Below, piece after piece: positions 39,276 to 63,956 of a DNA stretch of 64,000 nt. Made by a program: the position numbers and the translations under genes. Below the pieces are notes generated by a model that was not told where the DNA came from, searched no databases, and worked only from the letters and a program-made list of their open reading frames with translations. The DNA is from Escallonia rubra (taxonomy: Eukaryota > Streptophyta > Magnoliopsida > Escalloniales > Escalloniaceae): NCBI GenBank assembly GCA_033065855.1, contig JAVXUO010001194.1, forward strand, positions 208,501-272,500. Reading direction: 5' to 3'. The stretch's first letter is position 1. Each line of letters starts with the position of its first letter.

Positions 39276-40134
39276 GGGAGCTGATCCGTTGAGAGCGCTA
39301 GCAAAATAGGAGATCTTGCAAACGCGATCTGGCCGTCCATCCTGAAAGATGGACGGCCCAGATCGCGCCTTTTTCGAATACTGTCAGTCGTCCGCGACAC
39401 TATGTCGCGGACGGACTTTTTTACCTTTTTGCCCCTCCACCCGTCCGCTACACTGTATCGCGGACGGTCCAAATCTTTTTTTTACGTTTTTTTAAGTACG
39501 TCCGCTACATAATGTAGCGGACGATTTTTTTAAAAAAATACCCTCCTGTTCCATCCGCTACATTATGTAGCGGAGGAGTAGGCAGACATTATTTTTTTTC
39601 TGTCCTTTCTTTCATTAAAACTCTGACACGTTTCTCTCTCTCTCTCTCTCATTTCTCTCGTCAATTTCTGACACACTCTCTTTCCTCTCTCTCTCTCTCT
39701 ATCTGGTGCTGGTGCCATATTATTATGTCCTGAGCTCCGAAGAGAGATGTGATTCTGGTTTGATAGCCACACCATTTGAAGATTCAAGATGTGCTTTTTT
39801 CTTTTAATGATGGCTCCACTTTCTAGACTACAGCCTTGCTTCACGAGATTCATGGTAGTTGTTGGTGATTGCGGGGTAAACCACATTCTCCGCTGGAAGA
39901 ATTGCTTGACATCTTAGAAGCTGACACACATAGGTAAGCAATAAGATTTGGCCCTTCAGCCTTCCCCAAAGCAACATATTTTTGTCAATGGTAATTTTAT
40001 TCGTGGTTGATTTCAAACACCAGTTGGACTTTGCTTAAAGAATGGCTCCTTTACAGACACTTTCTCTCTCTTTTCTCTCACCATGTTTGCAATCCCGTTG
40101 GAACTGTCAAGGTTTTAAACAACAAATTATGCTC

Positions 40135-40169
<35 letters not shown>

Positions 40170-40635
40170 AACCCTCCACTTCTTCTTCATCCTCTGTTGC
40201 TGTTGCTGTGGTTGAGGAAGAATAGGAAAATGAGGACAGTGAGAGAAACGAGAGAGAGAGAGATAGAGAGAGAGATGTCAGAAGGACAATGAGAGAAAGG
40301 ACAGAGAAAGAGAAAAAAAAAGTAGTGTTTGTCTACTCGTCCGCTACATAATGTAGCGGATGGAACATGAGGGTATTTTTATCAAAAAATAGTCCGCTAC
40401 ATTATGTAGCGGACGTACTTAAAAAAACGTAAAAAAAAGATTTGGACCGTCTGCGATACAGTGTAGCGGACGAGCGGAGGGGTAAAAAGGTAAAAAAGTC
40501 CGTCCGCGACATAGTGTCGCGAACGACTGACAGTATTCAAAAAAGGCGCGATCTGGGCCGTCCATCTTTCAGGATGGACTGCCAGATTGCGTTTGCAAGA
40601 TCTCCTATTTTGCTAGCGCTCTCAACGGCTCAGCT

Positions 40636-40638
<3 letters not shown>
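39276..40638. mobile_element. (TA)n-dwelling hairpin-module element E1
   Basis: Terminal inverted repeats of about 330 bp begin GGGAGCTGATCCGTTGAG, with (TA)n outside both ends. Each arm holds about four short palindromes. The first (39390-39412) is GTCCGCGACA, a 3-base loop, then TGTCGCGGAC. The filler, about 39640-40290, is unique-looking DNA with (CT)n and (GA)n borders and no convincing gene, perhaps captured host sequence. Any target duplication is hidden in the microsatellite. Confidence 0.9.
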
Positions 40639-40689
<51 letters not shown>

Positions 40690-40697
<8 letters not shown>

Positions 40698-40900
40698 AGC
40701 GTGTGTGTAAACTGCGTGCAAGTTCGAAATAAACGGATTGTTTGGGCCTCATACTTGTGCACACCTTTGTTGTTTGGGATCAAAGGAAGTTATTAAAGAA
40801 ACCCAACGCGTCCTTGTCATTGATTTTTGTGGCCTCCAAACACGGAACAAGTGGAGCTAGTGGCCTCTCGGGTGACACACCTTATTATATTACTATTACT
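40690..40900. repeat. CBF-cluster upstream block, partial copy
   Basis: Right of E1 and its (TA)n tract the block reappears (AAGTTCGAAATAAACGGATT, GTTGTTTGGGATCAAAGGAA, CCAAACACGGAACAAGTGGA). This suggests a further, now gene-less, duplication unit. Confidence 0.65.
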
Positions 40901-41665
40901 ATTTATGTGGTTTTACCATCTAGAACGTAACGACCGCACCACCTTCGGCAAACAAGCCCCCAACCTTTCGGGGGCGGGGGAAGGGGAGGGGAGGAGAATA
41001 CAAGCCTAGAGGAAAAAGCCTATGCAATTTCCGTCTACCAAGCCTAGAGATGTCAAAAGGGCCGAGCAGCCTGCGGGCTGGCCCGGCCCAGCCTGTTTTT
41101 TGCCCGGGCTGGCTCGGCCCGGAAAGTGAATAGTAAAGGCCCTAACCCTTAGGGCCTTGGGCCAGGGCTAGGGCCAGGCCACTTTTTTCCCAGATTATCC
41201 AGGCCCGGCCCCGCTCTAAAAAGGCCTGGGTCAGGCCCTAAAAAACAAGCTGGCCCAAAACTGGCCCTTTTTTTAGGGCTGGCCAGACCCGGCCCTCTTT
41301 TGGCCCAAATTCTGGCCTTACACACAGGCCCTATACCCTGTGACAATTTTATCTTCATTTTGGCCCTACACACTGTGACAAATTTATCTTCAATTTAAGT
41401 ACATCAATTATTATCACCTTATACCGTAAATGATGTATATTGCATATTGTTCTTTAGTATATAAATGATATTTTAACAAAAAAAGAAATAGTTTGGTGAA
41501 ATTTCTTTAACGTTAACTCGATAAAAAGATTTAGACATATCTTTAGACCAAAAAGGGATTAAAAGACTACGACATTTTAAATCCTAGCATTAGTAAACCG
41601 ATTAAGATTATTATTTTTTTTAATATTTGAATGTCAGAAATATTATTGTCCACACACACACACAC

Positions 41666-41699
<34 letters not shown>

Positions 41700-42179
41700 G
41701 AGCTGGTCCGTTGAGAACGCTAGCCAAATAAGAGATTTTGCTAGGGCGATCTAGCCGTCCATCCTCAAAGGATGGACGGACCATATATATTTTTTTCAAA
41801 AGCTGTCGGTTGTCCGCTACATAGTGTAGCGGACGGTCTTTTTTACCATATTGCCCCTCCCTCCTCGTCCGCTACATAGTCTCACGGACGACTTTTTGAT
41901 CCTGACAACCGTTAGTCAAAAAGTTATCCACTACACTGTGTAGCGGATGGTTTTTTTACTGACAGTGGTCAAGTCATCCACATCCCCCCTGACAGTTGTC
42001 ACATCAGTCATGTCGCCCCACGACTATAGCGATCCTCTGTCCGCGACACTGTGTAGCGGACAGTATTTAAATAAATACTAAATAATTTCTATCCGCTTTG
42101 CTGTGTCGCTGACGGTTTTATTGTCCACCTTACTATGTAGCGGACGGTTCATATATATACACAAAAACCTAACTTCGAA

Positions 42180-42394
42180 ACTCTATTTCATTCTTTCTTC
42201 TCACAAAATTTTTTAGCGGGCGTTGGCAAGCAGATCTGCGCAATTTCTTCCCAAGAAATCCTTTAATCGTCTCATCAATCACGTGTAAGTTTACAAACCA
42301 ATCATTTATTTGTTCATAATCTAAAGTTGTTATGAGTATTGCGGCTTATATGCATGGTTTGGAATATGTATTGAGCATGTACTAGCGTTTGTCA

Positions 42395-42456
<62 letters not shown>

Positions 42457-44008
42457 GAGAGCTGATCCGTTGAGAGTGCTGGCAAAATTAATTAAGTTGC
42501 TAGCGCGATCTGGCCGTCCACGCGCGATCTGTGGACGGTCCAGATCTTTTTTATGCATTTTTTTAGAGTCCGTCCGCTATATTATGTAGTGGACTATTTT
42601 TTGCATTTTTTTGACAATAATACCCTCTGAGTCCGTCCGCTACATAATGTAGCGGACAAGTTTTCAGACTTTTTTCTCTTTCTGTCATTAATGCTCTGAC
42701 TTTTTTTTCTTTCTCTCATCCGCTACATTACATAGCGGACTAATTTTCTTATATCTTTTTCTCTCTCTCTCTCCCTTCATTAGTGCTCTGACTTTTCTCT
42801 CTCTCTCTCTCTCTCCTTTCTCCCTTCATGTCAAGCCAGAAAGAAATTCGACAGGGAAGTGGTTGTAACAACAGCCCTGCCACCACCACCACCACCAACC
42901 CACAAAACCACCACCGTTGTCACCACCACCCTCGTCATCCTCACCCAGATCGAATCAAAAACCCAATCCCAACAAATTACTTGATTGATATTGTAAATTG
43001 ATAAAATAGCTTTCCGATCTGCAATAGTGTTTTCAGTTGATAATGGATTTACTTTCTAACAGTGGTGAGAGTGGTTTTGGGTGGTGGTTGCGTGGTGATG
43101 GGTTTCAGCTGTGCTCAAGACAGGGTCTGGTGGTGGAGTTGCAAATGGATGAACCAGCTGTACTCGACAAAAATGAACAACGACTGGTCCACCTAATCCT
43201 TCCCCCACCGAGACTTTGCCGGCGTGGACTTCGCCGGAGCCACCGGAGGCGCAAGCAGGCACGGCCAGGCCGGTGCGGAGCCGATCGGCACAGCGGCGGA
43301 GAAGGAGGAAGAGGAAGACGGTGGCATGATCGGTGGACAGAAACGACAACGACAGGTCCACCTAATCTTTCCCCCATCGAGTCTTCGCCGGAGCAACCAG
43401 AGGCGCAAGCAGGCATGGCCAGGCTGGTGCGGAGCCGATCAGTACAGCAGCGGAGAAGGAGGAAGAAAATGGCATGATCGGTGGCATGGAAGAACACTAT
43501 GTACATAGCTGCCGCCGCCGTCGTACATAGCTGCCGCTGTCGGAGAGAGAGAGAGAGAGAGGAAGTCTTACCCAGATCTGAAAGTGAAAAGAGTCTCTGC
43601 ACACTTTGGGTCGTCATTTATATTATGTCCGCTACATAATGTAGCGGACAAACTAAAGTGCACAACATGTCAGGAGAGAAAAAGAGTCTGCCTCTGTCCG
43701 CTACATAATGTAGCGGATAGATTTATGTCAAAAAATTATCCGCTACATAATGTAGCGGACATGAAACATGTCAGAAAATTAATCAGATAAAGGAGAGAGA
43801 AAAAAAAAGTATTGTCTCTGTCCGCTACATAATGTAGCGGACGGAGCTGGAGGGTATTTTTGTCCAAAAATCGTCCACTATATTATGTAGCGGACAGACT
43901 TAAAAAAAAAAGCAAAAAAAAGATCTGAATCGTCCACAGATCGCGCGTGGACGGCCAGATCGCGCTAGCAACTTAACCCAGTTTGCTAGCGCTCTCAACG
44001 GATCAGCT

Positions 44009-44068
<60 letters not shown>

Positions 44069-44193
44069 CATGTGATTTTATGTGAACACATGCTAGCGTT
44101 GTATGTATTATGCATGTGCTAGGGTTGGATGTTTGAAAGCGTTTGATAAAAGCTTCCAACCTTACCGTTTTTTCATAATTTCAGTTGCAAAAA
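42180..44193 (+). other. Putative 5' UTR exon and intron of the E2 gene
   Basis: TATATATAC at about 42150-42158 could be a TATA box. A possible leader exon ends CACGTG at a GTAAGT donor near 42284, and the acceptor TTTCAG at 44179-44184 lies 9 bases before the ATG at 44194. The intron hosts the nested element E3 in its own (TA)n tract. This model is inferred from splice-like signals only. Confidence 0.4.
42457..44011. mobile_element. (TA)n-dwelling hairpin-module element E3, nested in E2
   Basis: It starts GAGAGCTGATCCGTTGAG and ends CAACGGATCAGCTCC-C, with (TA)n on both sides. There are several near-identical modules (GTCCGCTACA...TGTAGCGGAC at about 42637, 43627, 43697, 43738, 43820). The GC-rich filler at about 42830-43540 includes an imperfect tandem duplication of about 165 bp (about 43187-43350 and 43355-43490). 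It looks captured and has no recognised domain. Confidence 0.85.
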
Positions 44194-45715
44194 ATGGATT
44201 TTAACTCTGGACCAGAAGATCCCTCCGTATTATACGACCAAACAAATTATATCAGTACGCTCATACGGGATGGTGGAGTAAGATACATTATTTATCAACT
44301 TTCTTATTCTTACGAACGTTGTATACCGTTTGTTTTGCTTAAATTATACTTATTAATTCGTAGGAAAGAGTATTTCTCACCACCGTAGAGGTATCCGTTA
44401 ATTTCAAATTGTGGAAAATGAACAAATACCAGAAAAAATTACTGCGTGGAATTGGTTTTGGGATTTTCACGCATGGACAGATCTTTCAACACCTTGACCG
44501 ACACTTAATAGGTGCCCTTGTTGAAAGGTGGAGAAGTGAAACTAATACGTTTCACTTCCCTTTCGGAGAAATGACAATTAACCTAGAAGATGTAGGGTTC
44601 ATCTTAAAGTTACCAGTGACGGGGTGGCCGGTAATTGCTCCTCCGCCGGAAGCAACGAATAAAAGAACCGCTAGGGATTTCTTCACTTCGATACCCTAGA
44701 ATCAATTTAACACTGGTGGTATAAAGTTAAAGTGGTTGGTAGATACCTACAAATCTTTGCCCGAAAACTATACGACGAGATGCTTGTGCTGTACACACAA
44801 GCCTTCCTCTTGTGGGTGATGGGGGCAATTTTATTCCCAACGACGTCGAAGAACATGGTCAGCGTGAAATATTTACCGTTGTTGGGTAACCTGCGGGAGG
44901 TTGGGGATTATGCCTGGGGTGCAGCAACTCTTGCGTAGCTGTACCGAGCATTGCACAAGGCAACGAGGCCCGACTCCAAAGCTATATGTGCATGTTTGTC
45001 GCTATTGCAGGTGTATCATATAAATCTTGATTACGTGTTCATTTTTTTTGTTGAATCGACAATAAATTTTGACGATACTTCATATAATTTGTCGTTGCTC
45101 TCAGGTGTGGTCTTATGAACATCTTGCTACCGGCGCACCCAGGTGTAGGGACGAAACCGATAATGTGTGGCCTCGGTTGTGCGCCTAGGAGTACAACCGG
45201 AAGGACAGCCACTACCCGAGGAGAGACGATCATCATCACAACATTACGTACTATCGATCTCCGGGCCAAATGCGTTGGGCACCGTACAAACGTTTGGCGC
45301 GACGAGTCGGAGAGTCGTTCCTCTTCATGCTCTCCGGGTTGCAACGCACACCCATGATCCACTTCGAGATCGCAGAGTGGCAGCTGCTAGATCGCGCTAT
45401 GCGCCATTTTGACTGCTTGCAGGGATTCCCAACCGATGCCCCGGATATGAGGGTTAACAGGAACCCACCGGGTTTCGGATGGTTTGGCAAGGCGAATGCA
45501 AACAACTTGTGTGCACAAGAAATTGAGGTTTGGAATTCCTGGCAAGACACGCTGGCGGCCATTGTCTCGGAGCCTGACCCCGTGATCAGCACCGAATAGT
45601 ACAATGAGTGGTACTACCACATCTCCCTGAGGAGAGTATCCCCAGTACGGTTTGAACGCGGGAAGAGGTATGCGCCTATGGGTCAGATCGATGAGCGTAT
45701 GGCATGCGATCTGGT
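44194..45715 (+). pseudogene. Plant mobile domain (PMD) gene, decayed, in E2
   Basis: Exon 1 (44194-44277) begins MDFNSGPEDPSVLYDQTN. Exon 2 (from 44364) gives IGFGIFTHGQ, LIGALVERWRSETNTFHFPF and GEMTINLEDVGFILKLPVTG. These are hallmarks of the plant mobile domain found in MAIN/MAIL1 proteins and in several transposon groups. A TAG (44697-44699), a frameshift near 44780 and another TAG (44936-44938) interrupt the part reading VKYLPLLGNLREVGDYAWGA. Exon 3 (from about 45106) has a stop at a Trp position, then MRWAPYKRL, HFEIAEWQLLDRAMRHFDCL and YNEWYYHISLRRVSP after another stop (45597-45599). It is not translatable as one protein. The role of PMD in transposons is unclear. Confidence 0.85.
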
Positions 45716-45875
45716 AAGTTGCTCAACAACTGTTTTTAATTGAATTTGACGATTCTAAGTGTGTGTTTGAAGTTACTTATATATTATCTCTTTGGGGATG
45801 TAAGGTAATGCCTCGCTCACCTTCTTCCAGAAGTTGAGCGAGCGGAGGGATCTGCTGGATGCAACGGGCGCGGAG

Positions 45876-46376
45876 TGTAATATCACACATCGGTTGTGGG
45901 GGAGTTTACAATTGGCCTTATAAGACCCTGCCTATGAACTCATAAGTACCTACTTGACTAGCCCTTTTGAGGGAGGCAATGCTCTTTGATGGGGCCGTGG
46001 ACCGGGTTGTTACAGATGGTATCAGAGCCAGGTTCTCGAAAGCTCGGGCTGGGCTGTCCAGTCGGGTTGCCAATGGTTGGGGGAAACGAAGGCAAGCCCC
46101 GGTATATCCCACATCAAGAAGATTGTTGGGGCAACGAAGGGTGAGCCGAGTATATCCCACATTGGCTAGAGAGGAAGATTCTGGGCTATGTGTGATTGAG
46201 CCTTAGCGAGGACGCAAAAGGAATAAGGTGGGGAGATTGTAATATCCCACATCGGTTGTGGGAGAGTTTGTGATTGGCCTTATAAGACCATGCCTATGAA
46301 CTCATAAGTACCTACTTGTCTAGCCCTTTTGAGGGAGGCAATGCCCTGTGGTGGGGCCGTGGACCGGGTCGTTACA
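45876..46376 (+). mobile_element. TRIM (miniature LTR retrotransposon) inside the E2 gene
   Basis: Two 139-bp LTRs (45876-46014 and 46238-46376) start TGTAATATC and end GTTACA. Between them lie a tRNA-Met-type primer site (TGGTATCAGAGC at about 46017) and a purine-rich tract before the second LTR. The flanking 5-mers CGGAG and CAGAG match at four of five. I count about 11 differences between the LTRs (about 8%), so it is old. No coding capacity. It splits a reading frame that joins ...RRDLLDATG to LRQQANALAFG. Confidence 0.92.
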
Positions 46377-46736
46377 CAGAGCTTCGCCAACAGGCTAATG
46401 CGTTGGCGTTTGGCTGTGGGAATTTTTTGAACCAAGCATCGGGACAGCCTTCGGGCGTCAGCCCGGGAATGGGTTATCCGGGGTAGCAGGCCCCTTACGT
46501 GAGCGAGGGATACGGTGATCCCTCGGGACAGACTTTAGGGGTGAGCCAGGGATACGGTGGTCCCTCTGTGTATCGAGAATGGGTGGTGATTGGGGATCGC
46601 CAAGCACCATGGGCCATGCTCAAGCGCCGTGGGAAGAGTTCAGTGCGCCCTCGTTCACTTTGCTTCCGGACTCGGAACCCCAACCGCTTTCTAAGAGTCA
46701 AGTCACATTAGTGAACGAGTCCTGTGGGCGGGACCA
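46377..46736 (+). pseudogene. Linker between the PMD and protease parts of the E2 gene
   Basis: After the TRIM the frame continues LRQQANALAFGCGNF, then a Gly/Ser/Pro-rich low-complexity stretch (SVSPGMGYPG, SQGYGGPSVY types) with a TAG near 46484. Such disordered linkers are common between PMD and downstream domains in transposon proteins. Confidence 0.5.
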
Positions 46737-47612
46737 TTGGTAGCCGAAGGAGGGCAATATCCCCCGGTCAATCCCTGTGGGCAATATCGCAAAGGGCATC
46801 CATTGAAGCCCCTAAAGCTGCATAAATGCCAAATAATCCAAGAGCATTATTTGAGCGGGGCCCTCCGAGACAAAGCGTCGTATAGTGTGGATCACCCGGA
46901 GGGTGTGGATTACTGTTGCTTATGGGGAGAAATGTCATCCCTGGCTCTAGGGGATTGGTTAGACAACGGTGTCATCTCTACCTACGTGGAGATTCTGAAG
47001 CAAAGGGGTCGGGAGCGGCTGAACGACTATTCGACCGTTTTTTTGGTGGATGCATTTTTTTATGGTTTCCTAGTAGCTAAATGGCGTGAGTGGGTCAATA
47101 AAAGGGAAAAGAAAAAGTTGAACGACTGGAGACCGTCCGCTAACCTACGAGCGTATATTATTAGGAATAGTCCAGTGAGCGCAAGGCTCGTCGACGTGTT
47201 TCTAATCCCATTTTTAGGAGATAGCCACTGGTACTTGGTTTGCTATGAACCAACTGAAAAAATTGTATCACTCATCAATAGTCTCCACAACGATACCATC
47301 CAGATGCCTGTGTTGGACATGTACAGAGCCCAGTTGGATGCTATGGTAATCTTACGATTGTTGTTTAATCATTATTATAACTTGCCGATTGTAAATGTTA
47401 ACTCGTTTCGTACGCCGTTTTCTGTTTCTTGCAGAATCTATTTTGTGCTATGGTCCACAGAATCCGTGATATAAGTGTACCGGCGTGGCCAAAGCTCCAA
47501 TTCTGATTGAAAAAGATGAGGTCCAAGCAACGTAATACTTCGGACTGCGGCGTCTTCGTCTGCATGTACATGGATTCCATTTGTCGGGGTGAGAGCCTCA
47601 AGGCGGCCGTCT
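46737..47612 (+). pseudogene. Ulp1/C48-type cysteine protease domain, decayed, in E2
   Basis: The frame to 47474 carries features of transposon-borne Ulp1-like (SUMO-protease fold) domains: LGDWLDNGVISTYVEILKQ, FFYGFLVAKW, VFLIPFLGDSHWYLVCYE with the catalytic His, and IVSLINSLHND where the family usually has Asp (here Asn). An intron-like stretch follows, and then a further exon near 47519-47612 with QRNTSDCGVFVCMYMD, containing the Gln and catalytic Cys. The two parts are in different frames, the Asp is lost and there is no upstream continuous frame, so activity is unlikely. Ulp1-like domains are known cargo of some plant Mutator-like elements. Confidence 0.8.
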
Positions 47613-47619
47613 AGAGTCA

Positions 47620-48780
47620 AGAATGCGTGAATGGCTTTAGATATAGGATAGATTGGCAAATTATGAAAGGCCGGCCTAGAGCGGTTAGGTTTATTGAAAA
47701 TCCGTCTGAAGACGAGCATCCGGCTAAATATGAAGACCCCAGTTGAAATTGTAACATTTGAATTAGCTTTTTTTAATAAATCTTGATTATTTTTATGAAA
47801 GTTGTCATTGGTTTGATTTGATTTGTGTTGAGATGCGCTGATTTGTGTTGAAGATGATTGATTTGACAAATTTTTGTTGAAATCAGTTGACATTTGATTT
47901 GACCTGGCAATTCGTGGGCGCAAAGCAGTCCCGTTTTCTACGTGAATATCCTATTTCATCATCACTTTCATTGTTGCCTACGTGTGTCTCATTTTACAGT
48001 GAGTGTCTGCCCCTATGACACTCGTACAAGCGAGAGCGTATTTTTTTTTCGTTATGTTGCTTGTTTTTGTAGTCTTTATTCTAATGCCAAAACCAACCCT
48101 CAACGAAGACGCTCAAAAACATTTTTCGGCTTCTTCCAATGTTTGAAATGTTCGTCCTAGATACGGATCACTAGCATCTACGGGGGTGTTGGAGCTCGCC
48201 ACGAAATCAAACATTACGAAACAAGACCTATGTAAAAATAGACTACGCTTAACAATCAAATGACATTTCTAACTGAAAATATTACCTCAAAATTATCTTG
48301 GCGAATAGACGAATTTAGGATGACAAATATACCATATACATAATCTTAAAAGTGTATCCAATTTAACAATTATTAATTTATTGAACATAAAAAATTAAAA
48401 TTACTAAGATAAATAGACAAATTCGTCATGCCAAAATACAACAAACATATCTCAAAAAATTCGAATTTAAATAGGATAAAATTTTCGAAGTTAGCGAACC
48501 TCAAAAAAATTGAATTTAACTATAATGAATTTGTTTAAAGTTAACAAATTAATTTCTAGAACATCACAAATTGATTTCTAAAACATCACAAAAAATCTAT
48601 ACTTTTTTGTCCAAAAAAAAAATTAAACTTTATCAGTTATTCCATAAAGAAAACCTCACCATTCACAAACTTATCTTGCTTGAGTGAAGTTTGAAGCAAG
48701 TGTTACTCGAAGCTTGAAGGAAGCTGAAAATGGAAGCAAGTGAGTCTGAAGGAGAAGAAAATTGTGCTGAAAGAGCTGAG
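47620..48780. other. Downstream non-coding part of E2
   Basis: AT-rich DNA, including TGATTTG-type repeats at 47805-47900. Nothing coding is supported. The hairpin modules of the right arm begin at about 48785. Confidence 0.4.
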
Positions 48781-49509
48781 AATCTTTTGGGGATAGGCAA
48801 TACTGTCCGCGATACTGTATAGTGGATAACGTTGGCGACAACTTTCACGTGTGCAGAAATAAAGGTACAAATATTAATGGAAGTGTGTCAGTCCCGTCAG
48901 TCGAAAAGCTGTCCGCTACACAGTATCGTGGACGGCTTTTTGACTGATGGTTGTTAGGATCAATCAGTCGTCCGCTACACAATATAGCGGACAAGGTGGG
49001 AGGGGCAATATGGTAAAAAAGATCGTCCACTACACTATGTAGAGGACGACCGACAGCTTTTGAAAAAAAAAGATCTGGTCCGTCCATCCTTTGAGGATGG
49101 ACGACTAGATCGCGCTAGCAAAATATCATATTTTGCTAGCGCTCTCAACGGATTAGCTTCCTATATATATATGTGTGTGTGTGTGTGTCTGTGTGTGCGC
49201 GTGTCTAGGCATTTTTAGTTGATTGCATATACATATATTACTACATGTACAAAAATTTTGGAAGGAAACCGCAATTCAAGTTTTAAATTTGAATAACTAG
49301 AATTTTTGGAATAAAAACAAATAAAAAGGGCCTGAGCCCGGCCCAGAATATTGGGCCTAGGGCCAGGGCTTGGACTGGGCCTAGATATCCCATTCGTTTG
49401 GCCTGGCCCGGCCCAATTTCCACCCTACTTGACCTGGCCCGGCCCTTTTTTTCACGTCAGGCCATCTGGGCCCAGACTGGGCCGGCCCATTGACACATCT
49501 AACCAAGCC

Positions 49510-52465: not shown

Positions 52466-52903
52466 TGAATTTATAAAAAATAACCCAATTTTTTTTTTTG
52501 CTTTTTAGCGAGGAATTTCGTCGCTAAAAGTCCTCCTACATATCAATAAACGTTTTAAAGAGACATTTTTAACGTCAAAACTAATGTTCCTAAAGACTTT
52601 GCAACGTCTTTTAGCGACAGAAAATTCGTCGCTAAAAGTTTTTGAAAAACATTCAAAAATTAGTCAAAATATAAAAAATACCTTTAGCGACGGAATTTCC
52701 GTCGCTAAAAGTAATCAATTCCGTCGGTAAAAATTGAATTTTTAGGGACGGACAACCAAATTCCATATCTAATCTTTTAGTGACGGGGTTGTCACCAACG
52801 GACTTTTAGCGACGGATAGTCCGTCGCTAAAAGCCTTTACTGACGGAATACCCACTTTTTGAGACGAAAAATTCCGTCAATAAAAGTGAATTTTCTTGTA
52901 GTG
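52466..52903. mobile_element. CACTA-like element end with GCGACGGAA hairpins
   Basis: The right end TTTTCTTGTAGTG is the inverse of the CACTACAAGAAAA terminus of plant CACTA elements. Internally the motif TTTTAGCGACGGAA and its inverse occur repeatedly, including an almost perfect hairpin at about 52680-52712. The left terminus is not recognisable, so it is probably truncated. It lies between an LTR fragment and repeat copy B. Confidence 0.6.
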
Positions 52904-53545: not shown

Positions 53546-54010
53546 TATACACCGCATATTCATTAGAAACTCTCACCACTTCACCATACTTTAGGGAGCA
53601 GTTACTTCCCTAGAAGAATTACAACAGGTCACGTTGTTTTTAATATTTTATAAATTCATTAGACACTCTCACCACTTCACCGTACTTTAGGCTATGATTC
53701 GTATTTTTCTACAACAAAAAATATGACCAACATTCGGTGATTAAACTTAGCAAAATAATAGTAAGTAATTGAAAGTAATTTTGTATGAACTCTAGATAAA
53801 TATAGAGTAGTAAAATGATATAAAAATAGATGGTCCGTGAGAGTCGTTACAAAGTCATTGTGGTAAAGATGTTGTCGCCTCCATACGTGCAGTTGTTGAC
53901 GTAAATAAAGTCTCCAAAATAAAACTCATTTACGTGCTATATCTTCTCTATGTGCATGTACACAATAAGATGCTCTGAATCAGTCCACAATCACGTTGTC
54001 CAAATATATA
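53545..54010. repeat. LTR fragment of the TGTTGGAA family
   Basis: It matches the LTR family (TGGTCCGTGAGAGTCG, TAAAACTCATTTACGTG, CACAATCACGTTGTCC) and is interrupted by GC-rich DNA at about 54010. Confidence 0.7.
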
Positions 54011-55708
54011 TTGATGTCAAAGAAAGTGGGTTCGCAGTCGACGTGGAGGTACCACAAGGAATGTAATCTGAGTCAGATGCCAAGTATGTTGATGATGGAC
54101 ACATCAAGGTGGAATAAGGGCAGAGACCAAGGGCTTCCCAGACAGAGCCTGAGGGTGGCAGTGCTGCGAGACTGATGGCGTAGAATGAATATACGACGAC
54201 AGTCACAGTCCGATGCTAAGATCCAGAGTAAGGGTCCTGTATGTTTCTCTCTTTAGGATTCCAGAGTGAGAAAGTGAAAATGTGAGAGTCCTCCAAATGA
54301 ATTCTCAAGACCTCTATTTATAGAGATTTAGATGATGATGTCATTAACCAACACGTGGCACTCCCCAGGAGTGACACGTCACCGGGGGGTCCACAGGTAC
54401 CGGTGCTCCACGAATTGTCGGATCCCATATTCACACGGCCTACCCCGCACAGTGTCGCTCTGTCTGTCTGGAAAGACTGGCTCCCACAGCGTCGGTGTGG
54501 CCAGAGAACCCCCTTGATCTAGCCTCATATCCAAGCCCTTGCAGAGTCCCACAGGCCTGGCAGCAGAGAGGAAGACCCGACGCCCTATTGCCAGGTGAAC
54601 TAGGCGCGATGTCCTCGGAAGACCTGCCCGGCGGTCATAGTCCCTAGGGGTGCCGACACAAGCCCCCAGTGCCGGAACACGTAGGCCAGTCACGCAGGCA
54701 CCCTGGCAGAGATAGTGTTTCGGAGGAGTAGCCTATTTCGCCGGCCGAGGTAACATCCCGGAGGAGCTGTCTACCTGGCAGAAGGGGAGTCTTCGTGCCG
54801 GAGCACTTAGAGCACCCTGGCAAAGATAGTGTCCCGGAGGAGTCGTCTATCCCCGCAGGTGAGTCCTTGTGCCGGAGCACTCGGAGCGCGTCAAGGTACC
54901 ATTCCGGAGGAGCCGTCTACCTGACAGAAGGGGAGTTGAAGAGCTCCTTGGCGGAGATAGTGTCCCGGAGGAGTTGCTTATCCCCGTGGGTGAGTCCTTG
55001 TGCCGGAGCAGTCGGAGCACGTCAAGGTAGCATCCCGGAGGAGCCGTCTACCTGACGGAAGGGGAGTTGAAAAGCTCCCTAGCGGAGATAGTGTCCCGCA
55101 GGAGTCGCCTATCCTCGTGGGTGAGTCCTTGTGCCGAAGCACTCGGAGCGCGTCAAGGTAGCATCCCGGAGGAGCCGTCTACCCGACTAGCCGAGGTAGC
55201 ATCCCGGATGAGACGTCTACCTAGCGGAAGAGGAGTTGAAGAGCTCCCTGGCGGAGATAGTGTCCTAGAGGAGTCACCTATCCTCGTAAAATGTTGCACG
55301 CTCCGGAGAGTGGGTCGAAGCATGTTCCACGACCAAGGCAAGGTGCGCATGGTATGGAGAATGAGTGTGGTGCCCGGGGGGCATGTAATAAGATTGTGGC
55401 GCATGGGCGCGATGAAGTGAGTAAGGTGTCGGGGGCACGTCTGTGTGAGAGAGAGCCTGGGGGGACGGCTGTATCAGCGGCGCACGGGCGCACGGGCGCG
55501 GCAGAGTGTTGGAATGCGGCCCCCGAACGTCAGTGACGGTGGTCGCGGAGACGACATCCAGGCGACGGATGACGACCGTCGCGGAGTTGGCCTGCGGGCG
55601 ACGTCCGGACGACGGGCGACTGGGGTCGCGGAGTGACGACCGGGCGACGGGGTCGTGGAGTGAAGTCCGGGCGACGGGGTCGCGGAGTGAAGTCCGGGCG
55701 ACGGGGTC
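54011..55708. repeat. GC-rich insertion with minisatellites
   Basis: This GC-rich block contrasts with AT-rich DNA on both sides. From about 54650 to 55290 a unit of roughly 100-150 bp recurs, with GATAGTGTCCCGGAGGAGTC, GAGTCCTTGTGCCGGAGCA and AGCATCCCGGAGGAGCCGTC. From about 55560 to 55708 a shorter unit recurs (GAAGTCCGGGCGACGGGGTC). Several frames are open through base composition alone. It may be part of an LTR element, but I found no ends. Confidence 0.6.
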
Positions 55709-56240: not shown

Positions 56241-56246
56241 AGGATA

Positions 56247-57105
56247 AAAAAATAAATTTTATACACTACAAATTCATTAGAAACTCTCACCACTTCATCA
56301 TACTTTAGCGAGCATTTACTTCCCTAGAAGAACTATACCAGGTCACGTCGTTTTTAATATTTTAAAATTTCATTAGACACTCTCACAACTTCACCATACT
56401 TTAGGCTATGATTTGTATTTTTCTACAACAAAAATATGAGCAACATTAGGCGATTGAACATAGCAAATTAATAGTAAGTAATTTGGTATGAACTCTATAT
56501 AAAATTATGTAATATGGAGTAGTAAAAGGATATACAAATAGCTGGTCCGTGAAAGTCGCTATAAAGTCATTGTCGTAAAGATGTTATCGCCTCCATACGT
56601 GCAGGTGTTGACGCAAATAAATTCTCCAAGCTAAAACTTATTTACGTAGCTATGTCTGCTCCATGTACAATAAGATGGTATGAACCAACCCACGATCATG
56701 TTGCCCAAATATAGAATATATACTAGATATAAAGGAAAATACATTGTGATAGTATAGTAGAAAATACTAAGTTTGGAAGCATAGTAACTTCAAGTATATT
56801 TCTATGTCGCACCCCATGGCCTTATATATATATATATATATATATATGGCCAATCATTATGGATTTATTGACCACATAAGTAAGTTTAAAAGCTTTGTAG
56901 CTTATAGAATAATCATAATCATTCTCATTAATGCCAAATAATAAAGTGTGCTATACACAAGATAAATCAATATGAATTAATGTTACTCATTATTGCATTT
57001 GTAACTCATTTCATAATTTACATATAAGTAAATACCATATAACCATAACTTGCAATACAATTATAATCTTATAAGGTACATTTTATTTTATTAAAATATT
57101 CCAAC
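56247..57105. repeat. Long LTR copy of the TGTTGGAA family
   Basis: The most complete copy besides the solo LTR, ending AATATTCCAACA at 57105. It contains a (TA)n run at 56822-56847 and continues into TTTTGAGAAAATAAAATGAT, as at 33800. Confidence 0.7.
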
Positions 57106-57189
57106 ATTCCCCTACTATTTTGAGAAAATAAAATGATAATTTAAAATACTTAAAAGACCATTGATGAAATGTTTATATAGTTTAAATTA

Positions 57190-57760
57190 CAAGTTGTTGA
57201 TTATGTTCTTTTTACGTGGTGTATAGGAGGGAAAAGTAAGATGTATTTTTGGTTAGCCAGCTCACACGAAATTTCATACGTATAATTAAAAACGTAAATT
57301 GGATAGTGCATTTGAAGTTTAGTTTCCGATAAAAAATTATGCCTTACTGAAGAAATAACCCTTCAAATATAGCATTAGATTTTAGGCGAAGACCATGAAC
57401 ATGAACTGTGATCAACTCTAATACCAAGTTAGATCCTAGTATTCAATTCAAAAATATCCTTTAAAGAGATCATCAAATATAATAATCAAACTCAATATTT
57501 ATATATAGTCTATGTATAAATTTAATAATACAAATAATTAAGGACTCAGAGGCAGCGCACTTGTTGAACTGTGAGTAAAGATTCTTTATATTAAATCAAC
57601 TTGAATAGAAGAAAGAAATTCATAACCACATTGAAAAAGGAGGAAGAAAAGGACCTTTCAGGTGACGAGATAACCTTGAGGAGATATTTTCCCATATGTC
57701 AAGTAGGTGCAAACATGGCACACAAGAAGACAAAATAACCTATTAGGAAGTGACATCGTT
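57190..57760. repeat. CBF upstream-type duplication block
   Basis: It matches DNA upstream of CBF copy 5 (38095-38600: TTGTTGATTATGTTCTTTTT, CGTATAATTAAAAACGT, AGCTCTAATACCA) and then the GGAGGAAGAAAAGGACC segment. It lies on the 3' side of copy 6, so duplicated units abut here. Confidence 0.65.
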
Positions 57761-57875
57761 TATTATCTGTGGACTGAAATTTTTGCTAAAGTGTCTTTAG
57801 GAAGTGACAACCGACAGACTCTGGGACAAGGCCAATGCGTAAACTGACTAAAATTGGACGGAGTAACTTCATAAA

Positions 57876-58046
57876 GACACTTTCACAAAAATTTCAGTTC
57901 ATCGTGATCATAATTGTACCCTCTATCTCCGCCTACGCAGCGCGGTGGGGGCACTATCAAGTTGACGGTGCCACCATCGCGCTGTGTAGGCGGAGATAGA
58001 AGGTACAATTATGATCGCGATAAACTGGAATTTTGTGCGGAAGACA
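57876..58046. repeat. Fold-back inverted duplication at the 3' end of CBF copy 6
   Basis: Left arm about 57876-57953 and right arm about 57967-58046 are imperfect inverse copies of the CBF C-terminal coding segment (GTACC(C/T)TCTATCTCCGCCTA in one orientation and TAGGCGGAGATAGAAGGTAC in the other). About 13 bases separate them. The left arm keeps normal orientation and the natural 3' flank. The right arm is the extra, inverted copy. Confidence 0.9.
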
Positions 58047-58647
58047 CTTCCGCCAAATTTGCCAGCGATCCCGACATCCCGAAATCTGCCTCCTCGTCCA
58101 TGTAAAACGCCTCCTCCGGCCATGCCGCCACCCCGCATTCCTCTTCCTTGACGTCCTCCTCACGCTCCGCCGGCCGGAATGCCTCCGCGGCCTCGGCTGC
58201 CGCCTTCTGAATGCACTTTGAAACCGGTGAAGCCGGAACCGGCAGCCGCCAAGCCGAGTCAGCAAAGTTAAGGCAGGCTGACCTCCCCCTTAGCGCAATA
58301 GCGGCCACGTCATGGGCTCTAGCTGCCATCTCGGCGGTAGGGAACGTGCCCAGCCAGATTCTCGTCTTCTTGTTGGGTTCTCGGACCTCACAGACCCACT
58401 TGCCAGAACTCCTTCTCCTCACGCCCCGGAAAACCGGGTGCCGGGTCTCGCTGAACTTCTTCCTCCCAGCTCGCTTCTTGGGGTTGCTCGAAGCCAGCAA
58501 CACCGCCGCATCCGGAAGATTACAGGGTCTTGAAGTAGTACTGCTGCCTTCTGACACTATGGGTGATGCTTCGGGTTCTTCAAGCGGCCCGAGGCTTGAC
58601 AAATATGGAAATGGGTCAGAGAAGTAGGAGTGAGAGAAACTATCCAT
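58009..58647 (-). CDS. DREB1: DREB1/CBF, copy 6, with rewritten C-terminus
   Basis: A 212-residue frame starts [15 protein letters not shown] (ATG 58647-58645). The signature region reads [12 protein letters not shown], the AP2 domain is complete and DSAWR is intact. After [10 protein letters not shown], where paralogs read GLMVPPPHC...LWSY, the frame enters an inverted copy of its own 3' coding DNA and ends in [12 protein letters not shown]. The acidic tail and LWSY motif are therefore lost. Its promoter also lacks the CCGCGT stretch. It could still bind CRT/DRE as a weak or competing factor, or be on the way to a pseudogene. I cannot tell whether it is expressed. Confidence 0.85.
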
Positions 58648-58740
58648 TAGCAGTCGCAGGTATAGTAGCAGAAGTAGTGATGAAAGTGATAAGTTTGGCT
58701 TTGGGAGGCAAGTCAAAAGTACATATATAATATAAAGCAT

Positions 58741-59200
58741 GCAAAGGACTAGGAAAGCAGACAGGCTTGATAATCATATGGGACCAGCTTTACATTTGTG
58801 TGGAGGCCTGAGCTTGTGTCTGGCCTACATGTGTCTGGTGCGCGCTGATGGCATCATTAGCAACTAGATGATATTCGGTCATAGGACCATTTATGGGAAA
58901 GAACTAACTTTTTCTCCCTTATTTTTTTTGTCATTTTCGGGTGACAAAAAAAGCAGATATTTTCGGGTGACCACACCGAAAATGGAGGAAGAAAAAGATC
59001 TTTGCGGTGACAAGACAACCTTGAGGGGATATTTTCTCATATGCCAAGTGGGAGCAAACATGGCCCACAAGAAGACAAATAACCAAACAAGCAAACAGTG
59101 GACACTGACCCAAATAAGTAAACAGCTGACGGATTCTGGAACAAGGCATGCACCACCTATCTCCCCTGAGGAAGGAGAGTCGCACATATTTTTTTAATAA
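58741..59200 (-). repeat. Upstream block of CBF copy 6
   Basis: It aligns with the other CBF upstream blocks (CTTGATAATCATATGGGACC, GGAGGAAGAAAAAGATC, AAGGCATGCACC). Relative to 59720-59790 it is missing the short stretch with GAGACGCGCGA. Confidence 0.65.
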
Positions 59201-59349
59201 ATTATACAAAATAAAAATTTTAATCGGGTAAGTAAGTATTTTGAAAAATATAATTTTCAAAAGTTAAAATTTATCAGAAGATATAATTAAAAAAAATTTA
59301 AAAATTACGTTTGATACGATAATAATATTTCGCTAACTTCTTATTAGAC

Positions 59350-59605
59350 ACGTTATTTTTAATATTTTAAAAATTCATTAATAAAATGATATAAAAATAA
59401 CTGGTCCGTAAGAGTCGGTATAAAGTCATTTTTGTAAAGATCTAATCGCTTCTCTACGTGCATGTGGTTATACAAATAAAGTTTACAAGATGAAACTCAT
59501 TTTCGTAATTATATCTTTTTCATGTGCACGTACACAATAAGATTGTATGAATCGGTATACGATTACGTTGTTCAAATATAAAATATATAATAGATATAAA
59601 GAAAA
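59350..59605. repeat. LTR fragment abutting a truncated CBF start
   Basis: TGTTGGAA-family sequence ends ATATAAAGAAAATGGGTCAG at CBF DNA, the same breakpoint as at 36465. Confidence 0.65.
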
Positions 59606-60003
59606 TGGGTCAGTACGAGTGAGAGCAATTATCCATTAGCAGTCGCAGGAATAGTCACAGGTACAGTGATGAAAGTGATGAGTTTGGCTTTGGGAGGGAA
59701 GTCAAAAGTATATATAATAGAAAGCATGCAAAAGACTAGGAAAGAAGCGAAGGCTACGACGGAGACGCGCGATGGTAAGTAGACCGGCTGGATAATCAAT
59801 CATATGGGACCAGCTTTATATTTGTGTGGATGTCTGAGCTTGTGTTTGGCCATTTCTGGGAAAGAACTACTTTTTTCTCCCTTACTTTTTTTTTGTCATT
59901 TTCGGGTGACAAAAAAAAAGGATATATTTTCATATGACCACACCGAAATTGGAGAAAGAAAAGGATCTTTCAGGTGACAAGACAACCTTGAGGGGATATT
60001 TTC
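59606..60003 (-). pseudogene. DREB1/CBF 5' fragment with promoter
   Basis: Only the N-terminal start region survives (inverse ATG near 59632-59634). The leader, a TATATAAT box at about 59710 and upstream sequence with GACGGAGACGCGCGATGG follow. It is paralogous to the fragment at 36466-37030. The upstream part breaks off at about 60003, where a short piece beginning TAGGAATGGCAATTC, reminiscent of a hAT terminus, intervenes up to about 60235. Confidence 0.75.
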
Positions 60004-60237
60004 TCTAGGAATGGCAATTCAATCCGGATTTAACGGATATCTGTCCCACCCCGCTCCTGTACAAGCGAAATCTTTTAACTATAATCGAGCTAGGTGGCGG
60101 ATTTGATATTTATTTTTAATACTCGCAACGGATACAGGGCGGGTATGGTTTTAAGTTTCACTGCCTCGCTACCTGCCCTGCCCCACTTTATACATTAATC
60201 AAGGTTTAATCTCAACCGTCCATATTCCATCCATCGG

Positions 60238-60670
60238 CAGTAGCAGCAGAAGTGATGAAAGTGATGAGTTTGGCTGTAGGAGGCAAGTCATAAGTATATG
60301 CTCCGTATAATATAAAGCATGCAAAAGACTAGGAAACCTCTGAGACGCGCGATGTTAAGTAGACCGGCTTGATAATCATATGGGACCAGCTTTACATTTG
60401 TGTGGATGTCTGAGCTTGTGTTTGGCCATTTCTGGGAAAGAACTACTACTTTTTTCTCCCTTATTTTTTGTCATTTTAGGCAGACAAAAAAAAAAGGAGA
60501 TAATTTCATGTGACCCCACCGAAATCGGAGGAAACATGGCACACGAGAAGACAAAATAACCTATTAGGAAGTGACATCGTTTATTATACACTGACCCAAA
60601 TTAGCAAACAACCGACGGACGCTGGGAGAAGGCATGCACCTACGGCCTACCTCCCTGACAAAGGAGAGCC
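60238..60670 (-). repeat. CBF leader and promoter fragment without coding start
   Basis: It begins in the CBF leader (GCAGAAGTGATGAAAGTGATG) and runs through AGTATATGCTCCG, GAGACGCGCGATG and the upstream block to about 60670. The coding sequence is missing. Confidence 0.65.
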
Positions 60671-60900
60671 GCATATATTTTTTTAAAAAATAACACAAAT
60701 TAAAAATCTTAATCGATAAGTAACGATCTACAAAAATATTTATTTTTATAAGTTAAAATTTATCAAAAAATATGATTAAAAAATTTTAAATATTACGTTT
60801 GATACAATCATAATAGTTTGCTAACTTATTTTTAGATAAGTGTGGCTATTTTTTTTTTTTTCTTGTTACTCAAAATTTATTTTACTGAATATGATTAAAA

Positions 60901-61611
60901 TCAGTCGGAATAACTCCATAATGGTACCTCCGCACAAAATTCCACTTCATCGCGACCATAGTTGTGCTCTCCATCTCCACCCGCACAGTGCGGTGGTGGC
61001 ACCATCAACCCCTCCGCCAAATTTGCCAGCAATCCTGGCATCCCGAAATCCGTCTCCTCGTTTATGTAAAACGCCTCTTGTGGCAATGCCGCCGCCCCGC
61101 ATTCCTCTTGCTTCATCTCTGCCTCACTCTCCGCCGGCCGGAACGCCTCCGCCGCCTCGGCTGCCGCCTTCTGAATGTCCTTTGAATCCGATGAAGCCGG
61201 AGCCGGCAGCCGCCAAGTCGAGTCAGCAAAGTTAAGGCAGGCTGACCTCCCTCTAAGCGCAATAGCGGCCACGTCATGAGCTCTAGCTGCCATCTCGGCG
61301 GTAGGAAACGTGCCCAGCCAGATTCTGGTCTTCTTGTTGGGTTCTCGGACCTCGCAGACCCACTTGCCCGAATGCCTTCTCCTCACGCCCCGGTAAACCG
61401 GGTGCCGGGTCTCTCTGAACTTCTTCCTCCCAGCTCGCTTCTTGGGTTTGCTCGATGCCAGCAACACCTCCCCATCCGAAAAATTACAGGGTCTTGAAGT
61501 GGTACTGCTGCCTTCTGACACTATGGAGGATGCTTCGGGTTCTTCAAGCGGCCTGAGGTTTGACGAACATGGAAATGGGTCAGAGAAGTAGGAGTGAGAG
61601 AAATTATCCAT
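60901..61611 (-). CDS. DREB1: DREB1/CBF transcription factor, copy 7
   Basis: A 236-residue intronless CBF-type AP2/ERF protein, intact from [15 protein letters not shown] to LWSYSD. The signature [13 protein letters not shown] is canonical. The AP2 domain has [19 protein letters not shown], and DSTWR replaces DSAWR as in copy 5, its closest relative here. It differs from copy 5 by a handful of residues and a two-residue shorter tail. Its promoter keeps the TATA, G-box and CCGCGT arrangement. With copies 2 and 5 it is among the best candidates for a functional cold-inducible activator. Confidence 0.95.
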
Positions 61612-61683
61612 TAGCAGTCGCAGGTATAGTAGCTGAAGTAGTGATGAAAGGTGAAGAGTTTGGCTTTGGGAGGCAAGTCATGA

Positions 61684-61728
61684 GTATATATATAGGCAGG
61701 CAAAAGACAGGCCACGTGTAAGACGCGG
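61684..61728 (-). promoter_or_regulatory. Promoter of CBF copy 7: TATA, G-box, CCGCGT
   Basis: TATATATATA lies at 61684-61693, CACGTG at 61713-61718 and ACGCGG at 61723-61728 (CCGCGT in gene orientation). Spacing is the same as in copy 5. Confidence 0.6.
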
Positions 61729-61944
61729 GATGTTAACGAGAGGCTGGGCTTCAACGGTAGGACTATTGTTGCTTGCCTTATTTATTAAATATATAATAAT
61801 TACTCCAAAAAGTATCCAATCTAAAAATGGTCATCAAATATAATAATCAAACTCAATATTTTATATAGAGTGGATGTATAACTTTAATAATACAAATAAT
61901 TAAGGATGTAAAGAGTAAAGATTCTTTACACTAGATCAACTTGA

Positions 61945-62210
61945 AATGAAGGAAAGAAATTGATGACCACCCTGAAAAAGGAGGAAGAAAATGACATTTT
62001 AGAAGACGAAACAACCTATTTGAGGCATGCACCTACCTGCCCTGAGAAAGGAGAGCCACGTATGTCTAAAGCGCGTGCAAATTACGCTGAGAAAGGAGAG
62101 CCACATATGTATAAAGCGCGTGCGAATTCGAAACAAACGCAGTGTTTGGCTCTCCTACTTGTGTGCTACTTTGTTGTTTGGGACCAGAGAAAGTTATGAA
62201 GGAAACCCAG
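61945..62210. repeat. CBF-cluster upstream duplication block, copy near CBF 7
   Basis: It is nearly identical to 38505-38770, with two AAAGCGCGTG(C)(A/G)AATT units, and is interrupted at about 62213 by a MITE-like insertion. Confidence 0.75.
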
Positions 62211-62216
62211 GCCCCG

Positions 62217-62489
62217 TACGCTTACCATATTTGTTTTCTGTTTTTAGCAATGATAATGAAAAATATTCTTTTGCATTTCTGTTTTCGTTTTGGATAAAAT
62301 TACTCAAATAGTAACAAAAAACTGAAAACACCTAAAGCAGCTTTCACTCAAACTTAACTCAATATAAGAAAAATAGCTAATATTTTTTTTGTCAAAATGA
62401 TAAAAGTACAGGAACGGATTTTCAAACTGAATATGAAAATCGTGAAAATGAAAACAGAAAATAAAAACAGAAAACAAATATGGTAATTA
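62217..62489. mobile_element. MITE-like insertion
   Basis: Inverted ends TTACCATATTTGTTTTCTGT (left, about 62222) and ACAGAAAACAAATATGGTAA (right, about 62468-62487) enclose about 225 bp of AT-rich non-coding DNA. The target duplication is unclear. Confidence 0.6.
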
Positions 62490-62490
62490 A

Positions 62491-62578
62491 TATATAAAAG
62501 ACAAGTCACCCACTGGCTCCACTTGTTCCGTGTTTGTGGCATCCAAACACGGAACAAGTGGAGCTTGTCTTTTATATA
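62491..62578. repeat. Short fold-back hairpin from the CBF upstream block
   Basis: CTCCACTTGTTCCGTGTTT, the 9-base loop GTGGCATCC, then AAACACGGAACAAGTGGAG form a perfect 19-bp stem. The inverted similarity extends outward through AAAAGACAAG/CTTGTCTTTT. The right arm is the normal block sequence (compare 38818-38840). The left arm is an extra inverted copy. Confidence 0.85.
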
Positions 62579-62935
62579 TTTATATATTATATATGTGGCC
62601 GCATATTTTTTTAAAAAAATGATACAAAATAAAAATATTAGATGGTAAATAACTATCTACAAAAATTATTTGAGTTTTCATAAGTTAAAATTCATCATAA
62701 AATATAATTAAAAAAATTTAAAGGGTCACCTTTTATACGATAATAATATTTTGTTAACTTATTTTTAGACACGTATGGCTAACTCATTTTTCTGTTATTT
62801 AAGATTCATTTTACTGAATATGATAATAAATAACTACACGCGATGTTTGATTTTTTTTTTACACAAAATTTATAATATTAATTTTACTTTTGCACACGCA
62901 TCGCTTGCGTCACAATGACTTATATATATATATAT

Positions 62936-63954
62936 GGGAGCTGATCCGTTGAGAGCGTGGGCAAAATAGGAGAAGTTGCAAGCGCGATCTGACCGTCCAT
63001 CCCGAAAGATGGACGTGCCAGATCGCGCCTTTTTCGAAAGCTGTCAGTCGTCCGCCATACAGTATGGCAGACGGGTTTTTTTACCAAATTGCCCCTCCGC
63101 GCCTGTCCGCTAAACTGTACGGCGGAGGACATTAAAGTCCTGATGGGAGACAGCCAAAAGACGTCCGCGATACTGTATGGCGGACGTCCCCTAGGCTGAC
63201 ACATGTCCTTAGGCTGACACCTTTTTGCCCCAACACTTAATTTTTTTTTTCGGCCCTATTTACGTCCGCTATACTATATGGCGGACAGTCAAGGAGAAGG
63301 AAGCCTCCCCAACACTTAGTTTTTTTTCGGCCCTATGTACGTCCGCTAAACCATATAGCGGACAGTCAAGCCGCTATATAGTTTAGCGGACGTACATAGG
63401 GCCGAAAAAAAACTAAGTGTTGGGGAGGCTTCCTTCTGCTTGACTGTCCGCCATATAGTATAGCGGACGTAAATAGGGCCGAAAAAAAACTTTAAGTGTT
63501 GGCTTCGCCTTCCTTCTGCTTGACTGTCCGCTATATAATATAGCGGACGTACATAGGGCCGAAAAAAAAACTAAGTGTTGGGGAGGCTTCCTTCTGCTTG
63601 ACTATCCGCTATATAGTATAGCGGACGTACATAGGGCGGAAAAAAAAAACTTTAAGTGTTGGGGCAAAAAGGTGTCAGCTTAAGGACAGGTGTCAGCCTA
63701 GGGGACGTCCGCCATACAATATCGCGTACGTCTTTTGGCTGTCTCCCATCTGGACTTTAATGTCCTCCGCCATACAGTTTAGCGGACAGGCGCGGAGGGG
63801 CAATTTGGTAAAAAAACCCGTCCGCCATACTGTATGGCGGATGACTGACAACTTTCGAAAAAGGCGCGATCTGGCACGTCCATCTTTCGGGATGGACGGT
63901 CAGATCGTGCTTGCAACTTCTCCTATTTTGCCCACGCTCTCAACGGATCAGCTC

Positions 63955-63956
<2 letters not shown>
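62936..63956. mobile_element. (TA)n-dwelling hairpin-module element E4 (fold-back)
   Basis: It starts GGGAGCTGATCCGTTGAG and ends with its inverse at 63956. The two arms of about 430 bp are nearly perfect inverse copies. Modules differ from E1-E3 (for example GTCCGCCATA/TATGGCAGAC at 63050-63072). The centre holds a tandem array: a unit of about 79 bp with a GTCCGCTATA-type hairpin, GTACATAGGGCCGAAAAAAA and GGCTTCCTTCTGCTTGACT. It repeats about 3.5 times from 63370, with two inverse units before it. No coding content. Confidence 0.92.

Follow-up and report, generated by a model that had tools for sequence, protein, structure and literature searches.

Transposons in (TA)n tracts of an Escallonia rubra contig, with arms of paired half-sites that may be protein-binding arrays

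We describe five related elements, E1 to E5, in a 64,000-nucleotide stretch of Escallonia rubra contig JAVXUO010001194.1 (positions 208,501 to 272,500; hereafter the window), which lie in (TA)n tracts and have arms built from 23-bp palindromic modules. We think it somewhat probable that they are microsatellite-targeting Mutator-like transposable elements (MULEs) of the TAFT/MuTAnT/SaTar kind, whose inverted pairs of half-sites are protein-binding sites and whose hairpins are a by-product. An initial annotation had interpreted the modules as hairpins in which a substitution in one half of a stem is compensated in the other. Its description was for the most part accurate and the family is real, but the compensated-hairpin interpretation is unsupported by the fitting control, in which a half is compared with its own partner and with the other modules of the same element. 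This control separates selection on hairpins from repetition of a binding motif, and applying it removes a tempting inference.

The five elements share an 18-bp terminus, GGGAGCTGATCCGTTGAG, which a scan allowing up to two mismatches located at nine ends: on the plus strand at 31226, 39276, 41698, 42457 and 62936, and on the minus strand in copies ending at 40638, 44011, 49161 and 63956. The scan confirms the membership proposed in the initial annotation and its coordinates for four members, with the one-ended member starting at 31226 rather than 31229. The elements do not simply follow one another along the contig, because E3 lies inside E2, at a (TA)n site. Residence in (TA)n is also borne out, since a perfect TA tract adjoins all nine visible ends; the window has 14 TA tracts of at least 10 bp, totalling 415 bp (0.65%). 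The tracts may have grown after insertion, and no unoccupied site was seen. All four two-ended members have long inverted arms (312-456 bp, 80.8-95.4% identity, some TA flank included). In E1, E2 and E3 the left and right flanks start in equal TA phase, which requires an odd-length target duplication, provided that tracts grow and shrink in complete TA steps; phase is thus of the odd type in three of the four two-ended members and even in E4, the exact length of the duplication being hidden in the repeat. An exact 22-base version of the terminus had no match in collections of viral, bacterial and archaeal contigs, which hold no plants, and a search of paper full text for terminus and half-site strings matched 33 papers, of which the 20 listed do not contain the terminus and have titles on unrelated subjects.

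Read from the terminus inward, an arm consists of a mostly imperfect hairpin, which for E2 and E3 has the form GCGCTAGCAA...TTGCTAGCGC in the 3' arm, a second hairpin centred on GTCCAT/ATGGAC (GTCCAC/GTGGAC in E3), and then the modules, each made of two inverted 10-bp halves and a 3-nt gap (23 bp in total). We counted palindromes with a 10-bp stem, at least eight pairs and a 3-nt loop, using 200 dinucleotide shuffles as the control, and found seven in E1 (shuffle mean 0.58, maximum 3), seven in E3 (0.62, 4), nine in E4 (0.44, 2) and five in the 41698-42380 part of E2 (0.19, 2). A relaxed module scan returned 43 matches, 40 of them inside E1-E5, and the three outside pair at no more than 5/10 positions; the 3-nt gap carries no evidential weight, because the scan requires it. 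The palindromic arms of the initial annotation are therefore present well above shuffled expectation and concentrated in the elements, but perfect 10/10 stems are found in only 8 of 39 modules, with 329 of 390 pair cells matching. The central module of E4 (63369, 7/10 pairs) is not among these 39, and the 37-row alignment used below (32 distinct rows) leaves out the modules at 42091 and 42123.

Equivalence of modules was judged by their spacers, which define slots A1 and A2 in E1, E2 and E4, A3 in E2 and E4, and B1 and B2 in E1, E3 and E5. E1 joins both arm types, each of its arms having two A-type slots followed by two B-type slots. Within slot A2 of E1, the left half is of the CTACA type and the right half of the CGATA type. 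The 3-nt loops of some equivalent modules (39390-39412, 42572-42657) are opposite in orientation, CTA against TAG and TTA against TAA.

Comparison of the two arms of the same element, at the 13 spacer-matched slots present in both (130 cells; E3 z3 and E4 w5 omitted), gave 13 one-sided differences, one two-sided difference with pairing kept and three with pairing lost; of the remaining cells, 105 agree and are paired and eight agree and are unpaired. Between elements, 13 slot comparisons gave 17 one-sided differences and six two-sided differences with pairing kept, with 81 cells unchanged and 26 ambiguous. E5 contributes 11 of the 17 one-sided and one of the six two-sided differences, and comparisons with it retain late changes because it has a single arm. 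A recount without E5, made to gauge this dependence, gave six one-sided and five two-sided differences, all five in slot A1; shuffling right halves within elements gave means of 6.5 and 2.6, with at least five two-sided differences in 13% of shuffles. This slot-by-slot tally of paired and unpaired substitutions, of the kind that the initial annotation had proposed as a check over all genomic copies, does not show, any more than the arm-to-arm comparison does, substitutions compensated hairpin by hairpin.

The example given in the initial annotation was slot A1 (39390, 41812 and 63050). Its spacers do mark these modules as equivalent and they have two-sided differences at two positions, although the E4 stem quoted there has one mismatch (9/10 pairs). 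Six cells of this slot changed on both sides, and its covariation was 0.300, compared with 0.143 after shuffling, a value reached in none of 500 shuffles. Of the five comparable slots, only A1 has several positions with two-sided differences that keep the pairing. We rejected it as proof of compensation: slot A2 shows the opposite, with no two-sided change and a covariation of 0.013 (0.019 shuffled), and the coupled look of A1 at positions 7 and 9 arises with a chance of 0.13 when right halves of 5' arms are drawn from those of the same element, the true partner among them, before allowing for the choice of the best slot.

Pooled tests depend on what is shuffled. Among the 37 aligned modules, observed pairing, two-sided cells and covariation were reached in three, four and five of 500 shuffles, respectively, and shuffling across elements gave p values for pairing of 0.0006 (all 39 modules) and of 0.03 and 0.02 (single arms); these shuffles, however, mix elements. 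Shuffling within elements, we observed 164 pairs in the 5' arms (162.3 expected, p = 0.29), 165 in the 3' arms (164.2, p = 0.44) and 329 in both (325.5, p = 0.17), with p values of 0.29, 0.43 and 0.16, respectively, without E5, and of 0.19 to 0.60 when G-T wobble was allowed on either strand. Subsets of the within-element test ranged from p = 0.05 to 0.44, the lowest (0.053) coming from the 14 modules of 5' arms in spacer-defined slots. Coupled hairpins simulated on the 5'-arm layout gave p values of at most 0.05 in 200 of 200 runs at data-matched decay, and in 99.5-100% of runs at lower decay. The disappearance of the excess within elements indicates that the likeness between partner halves mainly reflects a likeness common to every half of the element, with perhaps a weak remainder of coupling in the A and B slots.

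The 78 halves have the consensus GTCCGC[T/G/C]A[C/T]A, with 1.67-2.00 bits of information at positions 2, 3, 4, 6, 8 and 10, 1.10 and 1.43 bits at positions 1 and 5, and 0.80 and 0.74 bits at positions 7 and 9. The least paired positions are 7 (25/39), 9 (26/39) and 1 (27/39); poor pairing near the loop, at positions 7 and 9, suits degenerate positions of a motif, unlike a stem. In the 5' arms, a half agrees with its own partner at 0.820, with other modules of the same element at 0.805 and with other elements at 0.777. Half-site variants track the element rather than the slot, an observation that we regard as suggestive. Position 9 is T in 19 of 22 halves of E4 (A in the other three), even where E1 and E2 have slots with the same spacers, and C in 14/16 halves of E1, 13/20 of E2, 13/16 of E3 and 4/4 of E5. 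Across the A slots, agreement with other slots of the same element is 30/56 at position 7 and 34/56 at position 9, compared with 16/56 at each for the same slot in other elements. When the element labels were exactly reassigned, the real one of the 12 possible assignments came top for positions 7 and 9 jointly and for 7 alone, tied for first at 9, and ranked 8th at the remaining positions; with three elements, 1 in 12 is the strongest result attainable. It is a doubtful step from here to half-sites that evolve in concert over the whole element. If this held generally, the scattered half-sites of each subfamily would have been re-tuned to its own transposase, and the arms would be a readable record of co-evolution between transposase and site in a lineage of MULEs that target TA and whose palindromic site array is CACTA-like. 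In this family, changes in the transposase could be compared with the drift of half-sites from one subfamily to another.

Mutator-like elements make target site duplications of 8-11 bp, with 9 bp usual for MULEs, and in this family the duplicated TA stretch would be odd in length. E1-E5 match the microsatellite-targeting MULEs in having long inverted arms and a G-rich terminus and in targeting TA, and the family would probably be mobilised in trans by a transposase encoded elsewhere. By analogy, each inverted pair of half-sites is predicted to bind a dimer, either of the transposase or of an accessory protein, that gathers both ends of the element in the manner of TNPA on CACTA subterminal repeats. 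The ability to form hairpins would then be a side effect of the motif being present in both orientations, and the two halves would decay independently once inserted. Transposase binding was among the functional readings offered in the initial annotation and is the one we keep; the compensated hairpin is not. The arms of Mutator hold transposase-binding sites (PMC3310237), maize TNPA recognises CACTA subterminal repeats (PMC2613891), and Ulp1 cargo such as that in E2 has been reported in MULEs (PMC13317346).

Several points weigh against the proposal that E1-E5 are MULEs with protein-binding half-sites. A scan of 19 open reading frame (ORF) pieces (nine from E2 and 10 other ORFs), which was not exhaustive, found no MULE transposase, so we infer the superfamily membership. 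The Ulp1-bearing MULEs of Arabidopsis lack terminal inverted repeats (TIRs), according to the part of the account available (PMC13317346). For the repeats of the soybean CACTA element Tgmt*, the authors call protein binding still to be determined (PMC2613891). The even TA phase of E4 is contrary to an odd duplication, except in the event that E4 acquired its right end by inverted copying of the left; the 11 visible non-tract bases of its right flank, AGTCATTGTGA, exactly match the inverse of their 11 counterparts in the left flank, TCACAATGACT, so the right end resembles an inverted copy of the left end plus flank, or the target was palindromic. The modules may share one ancestry, in which case their palindromy was possibly just inherited. 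Lastly, we rejected the idea that stems are more conserved than spacers: differences between elements are 0.25 for A1 stems, 0.20 for A2 stems and 0.21 for spacers, so that rates give no sign of selection on the half-sites, and clear conservation is limited to the 18-bp terminus (0.074).

We considered four other explanations. The modules could be a neutral relic, in which local duplication, tandem and inverted, spread a single ancestral palindromic module through foldback-like arms and its copies, now functionless, are decaying. We consider this unlikely, although stems and spacers do evolve equally fast, arm-specific changes are mainly one-sided (13 of 17 cells), and E4 has module-plus-spacer units repeated in both orientations (63371-63502 and 63528-63662, 93%), with 63230-63502 inverted onto itself at 94.5%; the concentration of variation at half-site positions 1, 5, 7 and 9, and the equal places of slots A1 and A2 in three elements, argue against a relic. 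It is improbable that selection maintains the modules as compensated structural hairpins, whether in RNA, as cruciforms or in single-strand DNA. The covariation of slot A1, the excess among the 37 modules and in cross-element shuffles, the near match of two-sided to one-sided differences without E5, and the one within-element subset with p = 0.053 would all fit such hairpins, as would the folding of nine arms at z scores of -3.3 to -14.6 (at most the first 330 bases, 60 shuffles each), which is expected of any such palindromes. Against them stand slot A2, the within-element tests with and without E5 or wobble, the frequency with which element pools alone reproduce both the five two-sided differences and the coupling in A1, and the common mismatches near the loop; moreover, an Rfam scan of 31000-64000 found nothing at gathering scores.

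A mechanism such as template switching or cruciform processing could instead keep the halves alike, by palindrome-correcting replication or inversion of the core. Loops at equivalent slots seem flipped (in A1, CTA in E1 and TAG in E2), and those of B1 and B2 differ in orientation between the 5' and 3' arms of E3, but each flip is equally explained by one to three substitutions, and the eight of 130 cells identically unpaired in both arms of an element indicate that correction did not act there; we judge this very improbable. Lastly, the likeness of the inverted motif array to the subterminal repeats of CACTA elements raises the alternative of another superfamily (CACTA-like, or an unclassified foldback) that targets TA. 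However, the termini begin GGGAGCTG and not as CACTA termini do, and the TA phase of E1-E3 is at odds with a 2-bp duplication, though it is compatible with one of 3 bp, making membership of another superfamily most improbable.

Maize TAFT elements are TA-flanked and of MULE type, like E1-E5, and are likened here by class, not by sequence; FARE elements are foldback MULEs with composite inverted arms and variable motif copies. The remark in the initial annotation that no family with this module design was known overlooked TAFT, MuTAnT and SaTar MULEs and the stem-loop subterminal arrays of CACTA elements. The kind of element is already known; for the 23-bp module design, we found no description for TA-targeting MULEs in the parts of the literature surveyed. 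MuTAnT elements of Medicago truncatula resemble E1-E5 in inserting into (TA)n, in a terminus with a G-rich start, in long modular arms that make a foldback, and in having short non-autonomous copies, and differ in TIR sequence (compared by eye), in having a transposase-bearing copy, where none was found for E1-E5 among the pieces scanned in the window, and in that the available part of the report describes no array of 23-bp motif pairs (PMC4486113). SaTar elements are likewise microsatellite-flanked, non-autonomous and TIR-bearing, with several clustered, but their arrays are described as uniformly non-nested, whereas E3 is nested in E2, albeit in a TA tract; the same grouping re-assigns rice Micron to MULEs, a likeness to E1-E5 that we draw at class level only (PMC5907723). 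Tm1, a foldback MULE, shares composite inverted arms with variable copy number of an internal motif, but that motif is about 14 bp and TA targeting is not mentioned in the available text (PMC3169594). Closest in design to the modules, the short motif of Tgmt* occurs in direct and inverted copies that form many stem-loops near the ends, 14 in all, although its termini and target site are different and its motif is 17 bp; this motif varies between subfamilies, for which co-evolution with a binding protein is posed as a question, and binding is presumed for Tgmt* where it has been shown for maize TNPA (PMC2613891).

Table 1. Elements, exemplary slots and cargo domains in the window
Feature	Position	Strand	Remarks
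E5, one-ended	31226..31463	+	Terminus and B-type arm, modules 31341 and 31385, then TA tract
E1, non-autonomous	39276..40638		Inverted ends 89.5% over 456 bp (some TA flank)
TA tracts of E1	left 39253..39275, right 40639-40695		Joint phase fits odd-length duplication
Slot A1 of E1	39390..39412	+	10/10 pairs; equivalents 41812-41834 (E2), 63050-63072 (E4)
Slot A2 of E1	39443..39465	+	8/10 pairs; equivalents 41867-41889, 63105-63127
E2, largest member	41698..49161		Inverted ends 83.7% over 312 bp (some TA flank)
E3, within E2	42457..44011		Inverted ends 80.8% over 354 bp (some TA flank)
Plant mobile domain (PF10536), broken pieces in E2	44364..45596	+	Searched piece by piece
Ulp1 (Peptidase_C48, PF02902), broken pieces in E2	46695..47611	+	E 1.7e-05, 2.1e-04, above curated cut-off
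E4	62936..63956		Inverted ends 95.4% over 454 bp (some TA flank)

The sequence of E2 is broken at E3 and again at a short insert that has direct repeats, and its cargo is likewise in pieces (Table 1). Two pieces of the plant mobile domain match PF10536 with E values of 8.5e-20 (44364-44696) and 7.2e-12 (44711-44935); two others are weaker, at 2e-06 (45189-45596, below the curated cut-off) and 0.12. The insert (45873-46376) has 142-bp direct repeats at 91.5% identity (45873-46014, 46235-46376), begins TGTAATATC and terminates in GTTACA, and resembles a small TRIM retroelement. A right end for E5 was not found when the window was scanned for the terminus. E4, together with its TA tracts and visible flank (62910-64000), forms a single large palindrome up to the end of the window.

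By gene content, the window looks like plant DNA: its ORFs include six with an AP2 domain, which we take to be CBF/DREB1-like, one histone, one tRNA synthetase and pieces of a copia-type retroelement. Segments 38807-39203 and 62533-62935, next to tandem AP2 genes, are paralogous (90.6%), and E1 and E4 each occupy the TA tract that follows one of them, so that two members of the family sit at equivalent TA tracts in the copies of a duplicated gene unit. The two insertions are probably independent. We judged it unlikely, despite the paralogous left flanks, that they are a single insertion copied with the CBF-like unit, since no interior match of at least 80 bp is listed between E1 and E4, whose inner arms also differ in type. 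A CACTA-type element end at 52503-52903 carries an exact CACTACAAGAAAA on the minus strand (52891-52903), together with TTTTAGCGACGGA-like halves arranged as four inverted pairs with gaps of 1-3 nt (52503/52517, 52609/52625, 52682/52698 and 52804/52820); it has the same inverted-motif design as E1-E5, in another superfamily, and no second end was found. Finally, 54743-55287 has direct repeats, about 71-81% alike, where the sequence is locally GC-rich.

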